Source: Ignavibacteriota bacterium (GTDB taxonomy: Bacteria; Bacteroidota; Ignavibacteria; UBA10030; UBA6906). Taken from it: a DNA stretch of 34,745 bases. The stretch's first letter is position 1. Each line of letters starts with the position of its first letter. This document shows positions 10,302 to 26,086 of this stretch, one piece after another. Location of the stretch: positions 1 through 34,745 of the forward strand of contig PMBF01000085.1 of assembly GCA_003152875.1 (NCBI GenBank), read 5' to 3'. A model generated the notes under the pieces. It was given only the letters and a program-made list of their open reading frames with translations, was not told the DNA's origin and made no database searches. The position numbers and the translations under genes were made by a program.

Positions 10302-11369
10302 TCAATCGAAAATTGATGTGCCCCTGGATGCCTTTCGGGGCGGTTTCTGTGCAGCCGGCGGAGCCGGCGGGGGAACGACTTTCCAGTTCACCGGTCCCCA
10401 GATAAACTTCCCGCTCAGATCAATGTAGCCTCGTTGGGCCCCAAGCTGCACAAGGGCAACGCCGTCCTGAAACTGACCCGCCTCGTCAAACTGGCATGTG
10501 ATTACGATTTTTCCCGAGCGGTCGATGTATCCCCACTTCTTTTCATCTCTCACGGCAGCCCTGTCCCCGGAGAAATCCAGGGCTCCCTCGAACAGGAGAG
10601 CAATGACGATCTTGCCGCTGTGATCGATGTATCCCCACTTCGACCCTATCTTCACGGCAGCAAGCTCCCCGGAGAACCTGCGCTCTTCGGCGAATTGCGG
10701 CGGAACCACAGGCTTCCCCTCGAGGTCGATGTAACCGCATTTCTGGCCTACCCGCACTGCAGCCACGTCCTCCACGAAATCTTCGGCAGTGTCATACTGT
10801 GGATTGAGTGCAATTTTTCCATCATGGGTGATGTACCCCCAGCGGGAACCGACCTTTGCTGCCGCGAAACCCATGATGAAATCGTGGACGCCGTCGAAGA
10901 TGGGGTTGATGGCCATGTGACCATCGGGGTCCACAAATCCCCACTTTGTCCCGGTCCGGACGCGAGCCGTGCCGTCGACGAATTCGCCGGCTTCGTCGAA
11001 CTGGGGGTTGATCTTGAGATTGCCTTCCGGGTCGATGAAGCCATACTTGTCACCGACCCGTACCGCTGCCACCCCTTCGGAAAAGGGCTGTGCCCTGTCG
11101 TACTGCGGGTTGATGATGATCTTGCCGTCCGGGTCGATGTAACCGTAGCTTGTGCCCACCTTTATCGCTGCCAGACTCTCGGAGAAGGGCTCGGCGCCAT
11201 CGAACTGGGGCTGGACGACGACTGTCCCCGACTTATTGATGTATCCGTGTCTGTCTTCCTGAGAGATCACATACAGACCGCTTGTGTCACGGGTGCCCTC
11301 CTTATCGCCGCAGGAAGAGAAGACGAGCGCAGAAGCAGCTATGACTGAGACGGCTAAGAATCGAAGCAT
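10302..11369 (-). CDS. WG-repeat lipoprotein with nine repeats
   Basis: This is a 355-residue protein with a lipoprotein signal ending at C20 (ALVFSSC), so it is probably anchored in the outer membrane or periplasm. The rest is nine tandem WG-type repeats of about 33 residues. Each contains a G-[YF]-[IV]-x-x-x-G core, for example GYIDPDG, GFIDPEG, GYIDHSG and GYIDLSG, followed by an NPQFD-like turn and a segment like FSEGVAAVRVG. The final repeat ends in a proline-rich tail. Such repeats form beta hairpins and are thought to mediate binding, but no ligand or function is known. The start at 11369 is the ATG that opens the signal peptide. Confidence 0.9.
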   Translation of the reverse strand: MLRFLAVSVIAASALVFSSCGDKEGTRDTSGLYVISQEDRHGYINKSGTVVVQPQFDGAEPFSESLAAIKVGTSYGYIDPDGKIIINPQYDRAQPFSEGVAAVRVGDKYGFIDPEGNLKINPQFDEAGEFVDGTARVRTGTKWGFVDPDGHMAINPIFDGVHDFIMGFAAAKVGSRWGYITHDGKIALNPQYDTAEDFVEDVAAVRVGQKCGYIDLEGKPVVPPQFAEERRFSGELAAVKIGSKWGYIDHSGKIVIALLFEGALDFSGDRAAVRDEKKWGYIDRSGKIVITCQFDEAGQFQDGVALVQLGAQRGYIDLSGKFIWGPVNWKVVPPPAPPAAQKPPRKASRGTSIFD

Positions 11370-11413
11370 GATCTGACAGGTTGGGAAGGTAGATGAAGAG
11401 AGTTCAGACAGTG

Positions 11414-11445
11414 CAAATATATGTTTCGTGTGCGACAAGGTCAAC
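11414..11445 (-). promoter_or_regulatory. Putative promoter of the WG-repeat gene
   Basis: On the minus strand, GTTG (11445-11442), 20 bases and TATATTTG (11421-11414) match the Bacteroidota -33/-7 consensus fully. The start of transcription would be about 40 bases before the ATG. Confidence 0.7.
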
Positions 11446-18546: not shown

Positions 18547-19632
18547 GTGGCTCTTACCGTTCTGTCCGCTGCCGAGACGACGTTCGATCTTGTCTCACTC
18601 GGGGAATGCATGATCCGCCTGAGTCCCCCCGGCCATCAGCGCATTGAACTCACACCAGTCTTTGAAGCCTATGCGGGGGGAGGGGAATACAATGTGTCGT
18701 ATGCGCTGGCACGCTACGGCCTGCGGACGGCATTTGTGTCGAAACTCGTCGACAACCCCCTCGGGCATTTCATCCGAAACCACGCCCGGGCGAGCGGCAT
18801 GGATTTTCGCGAAGTGCTCTGGGTGCCGTTTGACGGGTCCGGGCGTGCCGATCGCACCGGCCTCAACTTCACGGAAGTGGGGATCGGCGTGCGGGCAAGC
18901 GTCACGCTGTACGATCGCGGTCACACAGCGATCTCGCACATGAAGCCGGAAGACTATGATTGGAAGACGCTGTTCGGTGAAAGGAAAGTGCGCTGGTTTC
19001 ATACGGGGGGCATCTTCGCGGCTCTGAGTGAGAGCTGCGCCGACACGGCGCTCGCCGCCATGAAGGCGGCCCACGAGGCAGGCACCATCGTTAGCTACGA
19101 TCTCAATTTCCGGAGCAAACTCTGGACGAGCAAGAAGGCCATCGAAACCACCAGAAAGCTCGTGCCCTATATCGACACGCTCATCGGCAACGAGGAGGAT
19201 TTTCAGAAGGTGCTCGGTTTCCAGGTAGAGGGGACAGACGAGCGGCTCAGCCGGCTCCCCGTTGAAGGATACAAGGCCATGGTGGAACGGGTGGTGAAGG
19301 CATATCCGGCGGTCCGAGCCGTCGGAACCACCCTCCGCGAAGTCGTGAGCGGCCTGGTGAACAATTGGTCGGCGATCATGTACGTAGACGGCCAGTTCTA
19401 TACTTCGAGGCAATACAGAGGCCTCGAGGTCGAAGACCGCGTGGGAGGGGGCGATGGATTCTGTTCCGGATTCGTGTTTGGCTTGCTTCAAGGGATGTCA
19501 CCGCAGGACTGTGTAGAGATGGGTGCCGCGCATGGAGCCTTGCTCCAGAGCACACGCGGCGATACCAGCATGGTCACCATGGATGAGGTGCGTCACGTCA
19601 TGGAAGGGGGGAGCGCCCGGATCAAGCGCTGA
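18547..19632 (+). CDS. kdgK: PfkB-family sugar kinase, probable 2-keto-3-deoxygluconate kinase
   Basis: This is a ribokinase-fold enzyme of 361 residues expected to phosphorylate 2-keto-3-deoxygluconate with ATP, feeding the Entner-Doudoroff route. Visible features are VSLGECMIRLSPPG near the start, GGGEYNVSYALARYG (the first PfkB signature), VSYDLNFRSKLWTSKKA (typical of KDG kinases), and VGGGDGFCSGFVFGL as the GAGD-type anion hole with the catalytic aspartate. The first residue of that motif is G where A is usual. The start is the GTG at 18547 with an AGAGAGAG tract upstream. It is the last gene of the gnd cluster. Another keto-sugar substrate is possible. Confidence 0.85.
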   Translation: MALTVLSAAETTFDLVSLGECMIRLSPPGHQRIELTPVFEAYAGGGEYNVSYALARYGLRTAFVSKLVDNPLGHFIRNHARASGMDFREVLWVPFDGSGRADRTGLNFTEVGIGVRASVTLYDRGHTAISHMKPEDYDWKTLFGERKVRWFHTGGIFAALSESCADTALAAMKAAHEAGTIVSYDLNFRSKLWTSKKAIETTRKLVPYIDTLIGNEEDFQKVLGFQVEGTDERLSRLPVEGYKAMVERVVKAYPAVRAVGTTLREVVSGLVNNWSAIMYVDGQFYTSRQYRGLEVEDRVGGGDGFCSGFVFGLLQGMSPQDCVEMGAAHGALLQSTRGDTSMVTMDEVRHVMEGGSARIKR

Positions 19633-19661
19633 GCCGCAGTCGGAAAGCTCCCCATTTTTTG

Positions 19662-19768
19662 TCGCGATTTTCCGCAAGAGAGCTGAATTGCAACGATTGT
19701 AGGGTGGTGCCGGGAGCGGTTTGATGTGTCCGGCAATCCCTTCAGCTAACTTCCGTCGGAAATCGCGA
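19662..19768. repeat. 107-bp imperfect inverted repeat upstream of cas6-like gene
   Basis: TCGCGATTT (19662-19670) plus CCG (19672-19674) pairs with CGG (19757-19759) plus AAATCGCGA (19760-19768). AGCTGAA (19681-19687) pairs with TTCAGCT (19741-19747). GATTG (19695-19699) pairs with CAATC (19734-19738). An alternative inner stem is TGCCGG (19708-19713) with CCGGCA (19730-19735). The right end is four bases before the cas6-like ATG. It could be a folded mRNA leader or the ends of a small mobile element. Confidence 0.7.
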
Positions 19769-19771
19769 TCC

Positions 19772-19787
19772 CATGCGATATCGCATG
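19772..19787. promoter_or_regulatory. Perfect 16-base palindrome over the cas6-like start codon
   Basis: CATGCGATATCGCATG reads the same on both strands and contains the ATG of the next gene. It may be an operator, a small RNA hairpin covering the start, or chance. Confidence 0.45.
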
Positions 19788-20525
19788 ACATTCCGGGTCC
19801 CTGTCCCGAGAACCCGAATCCCCCTTTCCTACAACGGAGCGCTTTCCGCTCATCTGGCCGAATGGCTGGGAGTGATCCCCCCGCTTCCTGACAGCCACGA
19901 CCCGGCTTCCATGCCGTTCGATCATTTCGTCTTCTCCCGCCTTGTCATCAAGTCGAAGATTGTCGACATGAAGAGTCTGACAATCAAACTCCTCTCTCCA
20001 ACGGTCGTGCTCTATCTGGGAATCCCCGAGGCTGGAGGGGATAATCCCCGATCGCCTTCGGCTTTGTTGGGACGTGAAGTGCTGCTGGGAACAGAGGGTC
20101 AGAACCTGCTAATAGAAAGGGTCGAGTCGTTACCCCCCCCAATCTGGTCGCGGAGGATGAATTTCCGCATGCTCTCACCGACCGCGGTCCCGGGACCCGA
20201 TGGCACCTGGCTGAGGGCAGACGACGCTCGACTGAGTGAAACAATACGCCTGCTCCTCCTGAACCGTTACCGATCTCACTTCAACCACTCACCTTCCGTC
20301 GACGAGGAACTGACAGCAGTCGTTGATCCTACCTATCTGAGCCAACGGGGCGGCGGTGCAGGAGTTGTGAAAAGGGTCCGCCTTAACGCCTCCGGCGGCG
20401 AACCTCGTGATGTTCACGGCTTTGTCTGTCCGATCACTCTGCGCGGCAATCCGCGACTTATCGCACTCGCTTACGATAGCGGCCTCGGAACATTGGGGAT
20501 GCTCGGTTTTGGAATGATGGGATGA
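19773..20525 (+). CDS. cas6: Orphan CRISPR RNA-processing endoribonuclease, Cas6 family
   Basis: This is a 250-residue protein with the Cas6 layout. It opens with the strand MRYRMTFRV, then a helix region with PLSYNGALSAHLAEWL (17-32), a strand HFVFSRLVI (51-59) and IKLLSPTVVLYL (71-82). FRMLSPTAV and a helix LRLLLLNRYRSHF-like follow. It ends with the glycine-rich GLGTLGMLGFGM (237-248), the RNA-binding hallmark of Cas6. Cas6 cuts the CRISPR transcript inside each repeat. H42 and H51 lie where catalytic histidines occur in this family, H42 being nearest by spacing to the histidine of the Pyrococcus enzyme. No other cas gene or repeat array is within the window. It has no visible ribosome site. 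Confidence 0.8.
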   Translation: MRYRMTFRVPVPRTRIPLSYNGALSAHLAEWLGVIPPLPDSHDPASMPFDHFVFSRLVIKSKIVDMKSLTIKLLSPTVVLYLGIPEAGGDNPRSPSALLGREVLLGTEGQNLLIERVESLPPPIWSRRMNFRMLSPTAVPGPDGTWLRADDARLSETIRLLLLNRYRSHFNHSPSVDEELTAVVDPTYLSQRGGGAGVVKRVRLNASGGEPRDVHGFVCPITLRGNPRLIALAYDSGLGTLGMLGFGMMG

Positions 20526-20699: not shown

Positions 20700-22949
20700 A
20701 TGCAGTCCGAACCAAGTACTGTTCCTCGTTCCGAGAAATCCCGGGTCGGTGACATCCTTGCTGCCTGGTCATCACCGGATGATGCGCCGTCCGGGATTCA
20801 GGATTCGCAGGCGGTCGCGCCCTCCTCCGATACAGTTCGCGAACCGGGAACCTCCGAGGGGCAGGATGAATTCTGTTTCCAGGGAATTCTCGACAGCGTC
20901 GAGGAAGTACTTTTCCTTCTGGACCCGGACGGAACCGTGCGGTACATCAATGCCACGATCGTACGGCTCATCGGCAAGCCAGCCAAAGAAGTCACGGGAC
21001 GCCCGCTCGCAGAGTTTGTTCATCCCGAAGACCACCCGCTCCTGCGCCGGTACATCGCAGCAGCCCTGCGCGGCGAACACTGGCCGCAGGAGTTCCGCCT
21101 GCTTCATGCAGACGGCAGCCTGACGCGTGCCCGCGCCATCACGCAGCGGTTCATGCAGCAAGGATCGGTCAAGGGTGTCAGCGGAGTCTTTTCAGACATG
21201 GAAGGTGAGCAAAGCTTGCGCACCCTTTCGGTCGCTCTCGACCAGAGTCCGGCCTCCGTTATTGTGACGAATGCTGCCGGCGAAATTGAGTTTGTGAACC
21301 GCAGGTTCGTCGAGGTGACCGGCTACGCCCTGGAGGAGGTAAAGGGAAAGAACCCGCGCTTCCTCAAGTCGGGCCTCACACCGGCACTGACGTATGAACA
21401 GATGTGGGCTGCTCTGGATTCCGGGAATGATTGGTACGGCGAATTCCTGAACCGCAAGAGGAACGGCGAGCTTGTGCTGGAGGAGGTGCATGTCTCCCTG
21501 GTCCGCGACTCCGCCGGGCGGACGACGCACTATGTCAGCACCCACCAGAACGTCACATCGCGCAAGCTGGCGGAGGAACAGCTCCGTGATTCGGAACAGC
21601 GTTACCGGATCCTGCTGAACACCGTCGGCGACGCCCTCTTCATGGTCGATCAGAAGTCCGGGCGCATCCTGGACTGCAACGCGGCCTCCGAGAAGATGTA
21701 CGGCTATTCGCGCGAGGAGATGCTGTCGCAGCGGGTAGTCGATTTGTCGTCGGAACCATACGCGACATCCCTCGATACCGCGAACCCGCCGCCCAGGATT
21801 CATCTCCGGTATCACTGCAGGAGGGACGGCACGGTCTTTCCGGTGGAAATCTCCAACGGCGCCTATACCGTCGGCGGGCGTACTGTGATCATCTCCTCGA
21901 TCCGGGATATCACCAAGCGCATCCAGAACGAAGAGCTTCTCCAGCAAACAACGCGGCGGAATGCCGTCATCCTGGAGACTGCGATCGAGGGGTTTTACAT
22001 CCTGGACGAGAAGGGAAGGATCACCGACGCCAACGCTTCGCTCTGCCGGATGCTCAAGTACACCCCCGACGAAATCAAGTCGCTCGTTATCGGCGATATC
22101 GATGCCATGATGAGTCATGAGGAGATCATGACCGCCATGGCGGATCTGAGCGGCGATCCGGTCTTCTTTGAGACCAGACAGCGGCGTAAGGACAATGTGG
22201 TGATCGACGTTGAGGTTCGTGCGCAGCGGGTGGAGATCGAGGGACAGCGCATGGTATTCTGTTCGGCCCGGAACATCACCGAGCGCAAACGCGCGCGCGA
22301 GGCGCTGGAGACTTCCCTGCACGAGAAGGAAGTGCTCCTGAAAGAAGTGCATCACAGGGTGAAAAACAATCTGCAGATCATCTCCAGTCTGCTCAGCCTG
22401 CAGTCAAGGCAGGTGAAAGACCCCTCGGACCTCGTCCTCTTCACCGAGAGCCAGAACCGCGTCCGGACCATGGCCCTCATCCACGAGCGGCTGTACCGGT
22501 CTGGAGATCTGACCCATGTCGGCATGAAAGACTACGTCGAGAGCCTCACGTCCGCCCTTGTGCAGTCCAACGGCGCCGCCGCGCCGGGCTGCGAGGTGGC
22601 CGTCGAGGTAATCCCGGCCAACCTGACCTTCGACATCTCCATGTGCGTGCCGACCGGCCTGGTGGTGACCGAGCTGGTCACGAACGCGCTGAAGTATGCG
22701 TTCCCCGGCGGGCGCTCCGGCAAGGTCATTGTCCACCTTGAACAGGATATAGCGGGAGTGTACCGTCTTTCGGTGGCCGACAACGGGGTGGGGTTGCAGT
22801 CAGGCATCGACTACCGCAACACGTCCACCCTGGGCATGCAGCTGGTGCTGAGTCTGGCCGAGCAGCTCGGAGGGACCGTCACGCTCGACCGCTCGATGGG
22901 GACAAAATTCACGGTGACATTCGCCCGGCCCGAGCCCCCGGCCTCGTGA
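20700..22949 (+). CDS. Soluble four-PAS sensor histidine kinase (HisKA_2 type)
   Basis: This is a signalling kinase of 749 residues without membrane segments, so it senses something inside the cell. Four PAS domains lie at about 57-165, 173-290, 301-410 and 421-540. After each of the last three come the short helical linkers typical of PAS-PAC units (for example ITKRIQNEELLQQ). The phosphorylation motif EVHHRVKNNLQIISSLLSLQ holds H551-H552, with the one before the arginine the expected acceptor. The ATP domain follows with ELVTNALKYAFP (N box) and DNGVGL. This HisKA_2/HATPase arrangement often phosphorylates a separate antiterminator or diguanylate regulator, but none is encoded nearby. The input signal is unknown. 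Confidence 0.93.
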   Translation: MQSEPSTVPRSEKSRVGDILAAWSSPDDAPSGIQDSQAVAPSSDTVREPGTSEGQDEFCFQGILDSVEEVLFLLDPDGTVRYINATIVRLIGKPAKEVTGRPLAEFVHPEDHPLLRRYIAAALRGEHWPQEFRLLHADGSLTRARAITQRFMQQGSVKGVSGVFSDMEGEQSLRTLSVALDQSPASVIVTNAAGEIEFVNRRFVEVTGYALEEVKGKNPRFLKSGLTPALTYEQMWAALDSGNDWYGEFLNRKRNGELVLEEVHVSLVRDSAGRTTHYVSTHQNVTSRKLAEEQLRDSEQRYRILLNTVGDALFMVDQKSGRILDCNAASEKMYGYSREEMLSQRVVDLSSEPYATSLDTANPPPRIHLRYHCRRDGTVFPVEISNGAYTVGGRTVIISSIRDITKRIQNEELLQQTTRRNAVILETAIEGFYILDEKGRITDANASLCRMLKYTPDEIKSLVIGDIDAMMSHEEIMTAMADLSGDPVFFETRQRRKDNVVIDVEVRAQRVEIEGQRMVFCSARNITERKRAREALETSLHEKEVLLKEVHHRVKNNLQIISSLLSLQSRQVKDPSDLVLFTESQNRVRTMALIHERLYRSGDLTHVGMKDYVESLTSALVQSNGAAAPGCEVAVEVIPANLTFDISMCVPTGLVVTELVTNALKYAFPGGRSGKVIVHLEQDIAGVYRLSVADNGVGLQSGIDYRNTSTLGMQLVLSLAEQLGGTVTLDRSMGTKFTVTFARPEPPAS

Positions 22950-24637: not shown

Positions 24638-26086
24638 ATGAAAAGAACCGCTCTCTCGCAAGGGACGCTGGCGATCGTCGATACCGAAACGACAGGGACA
24701 AGCCCTCTGTACTGCCGTGTCATCGAAGTCGCAGTGCTTCGTGTCGAGCGGGGGAAGGTTGTCCGCACATTCCATACACTCGTGAACCCCGAGCGTCAGA
24801 TCCAGCCCATCATTGAGTCGGTGACCGGCCTTACGGCCGCGGAGCTCGAAGGGGCGCCGGTGTTCAGCGACATTGCCCGCGACCTGCTCGAAGTCCTCGA
24901 TGGCGCACTCTTCGTCGCCCATAACGCAAAATTCGACTACGCGTTTCTGCGGACAGAATTCCAGAGAGCGCACCGCTCATTCACGGCCCGCTGCCTCGAT
25001 ACCGTTTCCCTCTCGAAGAGGCTCTATCCCGAGTTCCTTCATCACGACCTGAGCAGCCTGATAGCCCGCTATGCCCTTCCCTGCGAACACCGCCATCGCG
25101 CCCTCGGCGATGCGTCGGCGCTCTGGGAGTTCATCAAGCATGCGGAGCAGACCCAGGGGTCAAAGCGGTACGCTGAAGTCATTTCATTGCTGACTGCCGG
25201 AGGGAGCGCCGCTCATCTGGACAGGGAAGTTCTGCGGGCTCTTCCTGAATGTCCGGGGGTCTACCTGCTCTACGGGCAGGGGGGAGAGTTGCTGTATGTC
25301 GGGAAGAGCACAAACATCCGGCGCCGTGTGCTGTCCCATTTCAGCATGGCAAGCTCCGGAGGGAGCGAGTTTGAACTGTTCCAGCATACACACAACGTGG
25401 AAGCCAGACCCACCACGGGCGATCTGGGAGCGCTTCTCTTGGAGTCCCGTCTCATCAAGGAACTGAAGCCGATCCATAACAGGGTCTCGCGCGCCAAGCG
25501 GCGGCTTGTCGTCGTCACACGGGATCAGAACGCGAACGGATATGCGACGGCGTCGATGGAGGTACGGGACAGGATCGATGCCGCCGACATTCCCTCGATC
25601 CTCACGGTATTCAAGCACAAGCAGCAGGCGAGGGAATATCTTGCTACCCTTGCCAAGGAGTTCTCTCTCTGTCACAAGCTGCTGGGTCTTGAGCGCACGG
25701 CAACTTGCTGCTTTCAACATCATCTTCACCGGTGCAAGGGGGCATGCGTCGGGGAAGAGAATCCGGGGAGTTACAATGCCCGCTTTGAACAAGGGTTTGC
25801 CGAGCGGCGCATCCGGTCATGGCCGTACAAAAGCGGAATCCTGATCGAAGAGAAGGGGGAAAACCGGGGGGAGGCGTTCCTGGTCGATCACTGGTGCCTC
25901 CTCTCGTCTGTGCGTTTTGGAGAGGATGGAGAACAGGATGTGGTCCCAGGTACCGACTCCTTCGACTATGACAGCTACAAGATTCTTCTCAGGTATCTCA
26001 GCAATCCCAGGCACCGCCGCTCGGTCAAGGTTCTCTCACCGAAGGAATACACGGGGCTTCTTGACAGCCTCCGAGAACATTCTTGA
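24638..26086 (+). CDS. DnaQ-like exonuclease fused to GIY-YIG nuclease
   Basis: This is a 482-residue protein with two nuclease domains. Residues about 10-175 form a DEDDh 3'-5' exonuclease: D15 and E17 in IVDTETTG, D100 in HNAKFDYAFL, and H153 with D158 in HRALGDA. Residues about 200-290 form a GIY-YIG domain with G207-V-Y and YVGKSTNIRRR, as in UvrC and Cho. Further on is a cysteine-rich stretch CCFQHHLHRCKGACVG like the UvrC cysteine region. This fusion is known in several phyla and probably acts in DNA repair. In mycobacteria and others it is annotated as DnaQ-like or UvrC-like. The 3' end overlaps the promoter of the next gene. Confidence 0.9.
   Translation: MKRTALSQGTLAIVDTETTGTSPLYCRVIEVAVLRVERGKVVRTFHTLVNPERQIQPIIESVTGLTAAELEGAPVFSDIARDLLEVLDGALFVAHNAKFDYAFLRTEFQRAHRSFTARCLDTVSLSKRLYPEFLHHDLSSLIARYALPCEHRHRALGDASALWEFIKHAEQTQGSKRYAEVISLLTAGGSAAHLDREVLRALPECPGVYLLYGQGGELLYVGKSTNIRRRVLSHFSMASSGGSEFELFQHTHNVEARPTTGDLGALLLESRLIKELKPIHNRVSRAKRRLVVVTRDQNANGYATASMEVRDRIDAADIPSILTVFKHKQQAREYLATLAKEFSLCHKLLGLERTATCCFQHHLHRCKGACVGEENPGSYNARFEQGFAERRIRSWPYKSGILIEEKGENRGEAFLVDHWCLLSSVRFGEDGEQDVVPGTDSFDYDSYKILLRYLSNPRHRRSVKVLSPKEYTGLLDSLREHS

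Follow-up and report, generated by a model that had tools for sequence, protein, structure and literature searches.

The Cas6 protein of Pyrococcus furiosus has a His/Tyr/Lys catalytic triad, and the Cas6 glycine-rich loop follows the consensus G-φ-G-x5-G-φ-G with one or more basic residues in its variable part (PMC3727216). The family extends to an inactive homologue from P. horikoshii, PhCas6nc, which binds RNA in a wrap-around manner (PMC3727216). Cas6 active sites are plastic, and the S. solfataricus Cas6 without a catalytic histidine can still cut (PMC3652601). Isolated cas loci occur frequently and are commonly interpreted as remnants; like the locus described here they hold cas genes without CRISPR, but they comprise at least three cas genes, whereas ours comprises cas6 alone (Zhang and Ye 2017, PMC5294841). 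Here we describe this single gene, from an Ignavibacteriota bacterium, and weigh what its product may now do.

The stretch of DNA that we analysed (the window, 34,745 nucleotides) is the entire contig C11, one of 120 contigs of a 3.96-Mb MAG that is 97% complete. Within it the cas6-like gene is flanked by 19.8 and 14.2 kb of resolved sequence, and its neighbours are a sugar kinase and a sensor kinase, as the initial annotation had proposed:

18547 to 19632, plus strand: PfkB-family carbohydrate kinase, upstream neighbour (domain match)
19773 to 20525, plus strand: cas6-like gene, 250 amino acids, ATG start, two RRM (RAMP) domains
20700 to 22949, plus strand: PAS/HisKA_2/HATPase sensor kinase, downstream neighbour (domain match)

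The open reading frame is a real, intact Cas6 homologue. Its product matches Pfam Cas6_C (PF01881) with an E-value of 6.3e-10 and 40.4 bits, above the curated cut-off of 23, and PADLOC Cas6b (E 2.2e-20) over residues 1 to 249; the NCBIfam cas6 equivalog TIGR01877 scores 51.0 bits, slightly below its cut-off of 58.65. AlphaFold yielded a confident two-domain model (pLDDT 86.6, pTM 0.84), and this model, together with Foldseek, revealed two RRM/RAMP domains in tandem, folded as in Cas6. Cas6 structures fill the top Foldseek ranks, the solved ones at about 1e-12 or better, and the best nine PDB Cas6 matches have TM-scores of 0.62–0.76. Profiles and predicted fold thus agree in placing the protein inside the Cas6 family, to which it had been assigned from its sequence. 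The protein has a pI of 9.8, and in the alignment its first residues, MR, are in register with the start of its relatives. The start of the gene, ATGCGATATCGCAT (window 19773–19786), is a perfect 14-base palindrome that spans the start codon.

By both sequence and fold, the best matches are PH0350 (3qjj, Foldseek E 8.9e-17), which we take to be PhCas6nc, and PF0393 (3ufc, 1.2e-16); the active P. furiosus Cas6 (3i4h) follows at 2.6e-12. PH0350 and PF0393 resemble the window protein in having a short loop before the F-x-F-S strand and in having the Tyr and Lys positions replaced. They differ in that they lack Tyr, His and Lys alike and keep the Glu-Lys of the glycine-rich loop, whereas the window protein keeps His42 and has lost Glu-Lys. 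The active P. furiosus Cas6 (3i4h, 3pkm) has the fold and the triad histidine in common with the window protein, but its Tyr and Lys correspond to Ala29 and Asp50. The residues concerned are encoded as follows:

19857 to 19859, plus strand: codon 29, Ala at the catalytic Tyr position (by alignment; Tyr in 50 of 50 cas- or array-associated homologues)
19896 to 19898, plus strand: codon 42, His, the sole triad residue kept (by alignment)
19920 to 19922, plus strand: codon 50, Asp at the catalytic Lys position (by alignment; Lys or Arg in 50 of 50 associated homologues)
20481 to 20516, plus strand: glycine-rich loop GLGTLGMLGFGM, residues 237 to 248, conserved glycines kept, Glu-Lys changed to Thr-Leu

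In a profile alignment with P. furiosus Cas6, the Tyr, His and Lys of the triad (presumably Tyr31, His46 and Lys52 in Pyrococcus numbering) fall on A29, H42 and D50, so that the window protein lacks the complete His/Tyr/Lys triad. Two histidines, H42 and H51, had been named as candidate catalytic residues. H42 aligns with the catalytic His and lies 22 residues past Y20, the same spacing as in short-loop methanogen Cas6 proteins, but in a shortened loop that is of low confidence in the AlphaFold model. H51 does not align with it and occupies the variable position of F-K-(H/L)-F. The glycine-rich loop is present as annotated; its core, GLGTLGMLGFG, has the glycines and no basic residue, and thereby departs from the loop consensus. 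Across 31 near-invariant sites the window protein keeps 19, whereas the other 68 sequences keep at least 25, except one orphan (L065) with 16; because the named loci were retrieved by a glycine-loop pattern, which biases the sample towards that loop, we also excluded the loop, whereupon the window protein was second lowest with 14 of 22 sites kept, the next ones keeping 16. With the loop's basic residue and two members of the triad replaced, the case for a normal RNA endonuclease is weakened: the Cas6 plan proposed for the protein holds in family and fold, and fails in the normal catalytic set. Cutting has probably been lost or reduced, although some activity is possible since His42 is kept and a Cas6 without this histidine can cut (PMC3652601).

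We favour, at a probability of about one half, the reading that the window gene encodes a Cas6 remnant that binds RNA, is catalytically weakened so that it cuts little or not at all, and is kept for a non-immune role. The gene would derive from the type I-B/III Cas6 clade found in its own order, and the CRISPR array and partner genes would have been lost, or else cas6 arrived alone. The two-RRM fold, basic character and glycine-rich loop are retained, whereas the tyrosine (now Ala29), the lysine (now Asp50) and the loop's basic residue are gone. The protein thus probably still binds RNA and cuts it inefficiently, if at all, resembling the inactive P. horikoshii homologue, and binding RNA in some non-immune role would be what preserves the gene. 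Take-over for another RNA is possible, binding being likelier than cutting. The RNA-binding reading is weakened by poor codon usage, by the retention of His42, by the fragmented MAG and by the lack of an ortholog with which to gauge selection after CRISPR loss. We nevertheless favour it over a functionless relic, a Cas6 acting in trans and a re-targeted nuclease.

The gene had been annotated as an orphan without a CRISPR array or other cas genes, and a whole-genome check agrees with this within the reach of a 97%-complete MAG. The window contig contains no array, and since the window is a complete contig, that contig has no adjoining sequence that could hold a cas operon; the window also contains no tRNA and no Rfam match. 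Cas1 was not found in the assembly by a search that did detect it in 7 of the 31 genomes covered and in 9 of 14 controls, and type III RAMP proteins were not found by a search that detected them in a relative (G015). Type I-B Cas7 was not found with TIGR01875, which found Cas7 in G047; as TIGR01875 missed the Cas7 of G015, this negative is weak on its own, and a repeat of the search with the G015 Cas7 as query was again negative in the assembly and positive in G015 and G090. For Cas3, the assembly gave only helicases below the cut-off, of the same kind as those given by E. coli and B. subtilis. The 30-base repeat of the clade, GTTTGAATCGRACYANNGTRGAATTGAAAC, occurs with up to three mismatches in 6 of 10 relatives (G015, G018, G047, G073, G075 and G021); at the same tolerance the 3.96-Mb assembly contains none, not even single copies, and nowhere does it have TTGAAAC motifs paired at the spacing of an array. 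Furthermore, direct reading of 1.79 Mb (45%) of the genome, with an array scan that recovered the arrays of control loci, showed no array with any repeat and no cas protein. A degenerate repeat beside cas6 was considered and rejected: the best candidates match 16 of 30 bases near the gene and 18 of 30 in the window, and shuffled sequence does equally well.

These results bear on the suggestion, made in the initial annotation, that the protein may serve a distant array in trans; the array and effectors of such a working Cas6 would then be on sequence missing from the assembly or on an unbinned plasmid. The MAG is in 120 contigs with about 3% missing, His42 is kept, and the G018 bin illustrates how MAGs can lose a cas operon, as it contains Cas6 and repeats while Cas1, Cas7 and an over-cut-off Cas3 went undetected in it. 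However, the G018 cas6 lies 259 bases from a contig end, unlike the window cas6, which is in mid-contig with resolved flanks among household genes. With the clade repeat absent and the effector genes undetected, and with two members of the triad and the loop's basic residue gone, when 0 of 50 associated homologues show triad loss, we consider an array in trans improbable. In G018 (L053, G018:C254), cas6 stands at one contig end and the repeats stand at a different one.

A phylogenetic tree of 69 Cas6 proteins groups the window protein with relatives of its own family and order (support 100/98), several of which adjoin type I-B/III genes; its end branch measures 1.48 against a median of 0.34, and branches of such length are placed less surely. 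The Ignavibacteria type I-B/III Cas6 proteins (G015, G018, G047, VGWB01000049 and JAMCXB010000014) belong to the same clade, at 34–38% identity over the full length, and differ from the window protein in having an intact triad; several have cas genes beside them and several the repeat. Among the other searched genomes of the window's family, only G015 and G018 gave a Cas6 match. No ortholog of the window Cas6 was found, the nearest proteins being 36–38% identical, and a single-protein search of genome contigs with it returned no relative. Conservation of the gene order in relatives, which had been raised as a check, is not observed: family members carry the PfkB kinase at about 80% identity, but with no cas6 behind it. 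Either the gene was gained in this lineage alone, or it has survived where others repeatedly lost it. A viral or plasmid origin was considered and rejected, as phage and plasmid collections gave no match and IMG/VR one distant match.

The same long branch, on which many conserved sites were lost, would also suit a decaying relic, the functionless last gene of a lost CRISPR–Cas locus whose frameshift is yet to come. Codon usage points the same way: the cas6 score is 0.025 bits per codon against 0.28–0.39 in the neighbours, and GC3 is also lower, as in a foreign gene or one under weak selection. Partner genes are undetected, and isolated cas loci are often read as remnants (PMC5294841). Against decay, the frame has no interruption and both its ends are in register, and the fold is predicted with confidence by AlphaFold. 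When neutral decay was simulated from a relative's gene, 1.3% of the copies were stop-free at 70% identity and 0 of 300 at 60%. Since neutral simulation nearly always brings stops, selection maintained the frame along most of the branch, perhaps at a time when the array was still present, and the survival of an open frame over so long a branch argues against plain decay. All of this selection may predate array loss, and we regard a relic as unlikely, but as the strongest competitor of the RNA-binding reading.

The leader of cas6 (19659–19772) folds into one extended imperfect hairpin of −46.3 kcal/mol, with arms TCGCGATTTTCCG... and ...CGGAAATCGCGA. Such a hairpin, as an example of another structured RNA, could be the substrate of a co-opted, still active nuclease that uses His42 in an altered active site; His42 is at a fitting spacing, and the plasticity of Cas6 active sites (PMC3652601) would allow it. 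Yet the fold is unremarkable, as 99 of 1,732 window stretches are as good or better and, for a longer stretch, so are 11 of 200 shuffles, and we rejected the leader as a candidate substrate. The loss of Tyr and Lys also speaks against a co-opted active nuclease, which we consider the least probable of the four accounts.

We then compared orphan and cas-associated homologues. The 70 homologues fall into three groups: 50 whose locus includes cas genes or an array, 15 on contigs too short for judgement and 5, the window gene included, that are flank-cleared orphans, defined by a minimum of 4 kb of flank on either side without cas genes or arrays, a limit chosen after the loci had been seen. The triad is Y-H-K or Y-H-R in 50 of 50 associated homologues and Y-H-K in all 15 on short contigs. 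The five orphans read A-H-D (window), F-T-Y (L065), Y-K-P (L059), Y-N-K (L227) and Y-H-K (L051), assignments that depend, in the loop, on the alignment, an earlier version of which read the Tyr position of L059 differently. Thus, the triad is damaged in 4 of 5 orphans against 0 of 50 associated homologues (Fisher p 1.5e-5, for a small group and with kinship ignored); these orphan calls come from locus flanks, partners having been sought in only some of the genomes, two of which (G180 and G137) are only about 67% complete. Since the orphans included in the tree, which leaves out L059, sit in different parts of it, the losses look like separate events. It is possible, and we suggest it tentatively, that loss of catalytic residues with the fold kept recurs among orphan Cas6 proteins, those of the window, G160, G180 and a Nitrospirae MAG each having changed differently after leaving their cas genes, in a recurrent domestication as non-immune RNA-binding proteins.

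If orphan cas6 genes do persist without arrays while the triad erodes, they offer a natural test of non-cutting roles of Cas6; if the window gene is merely decaying, it is an ordinary remnant. Orphan Cas6 proteins are also a warning that CRISPR immunity should not be called from a lone cas6 match.

Several further observations were made in passing. The divergent Cas6-like orphan of G160 (L065:9969-11999) adjoins an EcoRI restriction endonuclease gene (PF02963, 466 bits), and the orphan Cas6 of the Nitrospirae MAG (L227:9983-10756) has Asn at the catalytic His position. Elsewhere in the window, direct repeats with 102-base spacing (10486–11198) lie within a minus-strand open reading frame at about 10305–11444, and an RNase T-type 3′–5′ exonuclease domain is fused to a GIY-YIG domain in a single open reading frame (24638–26086).
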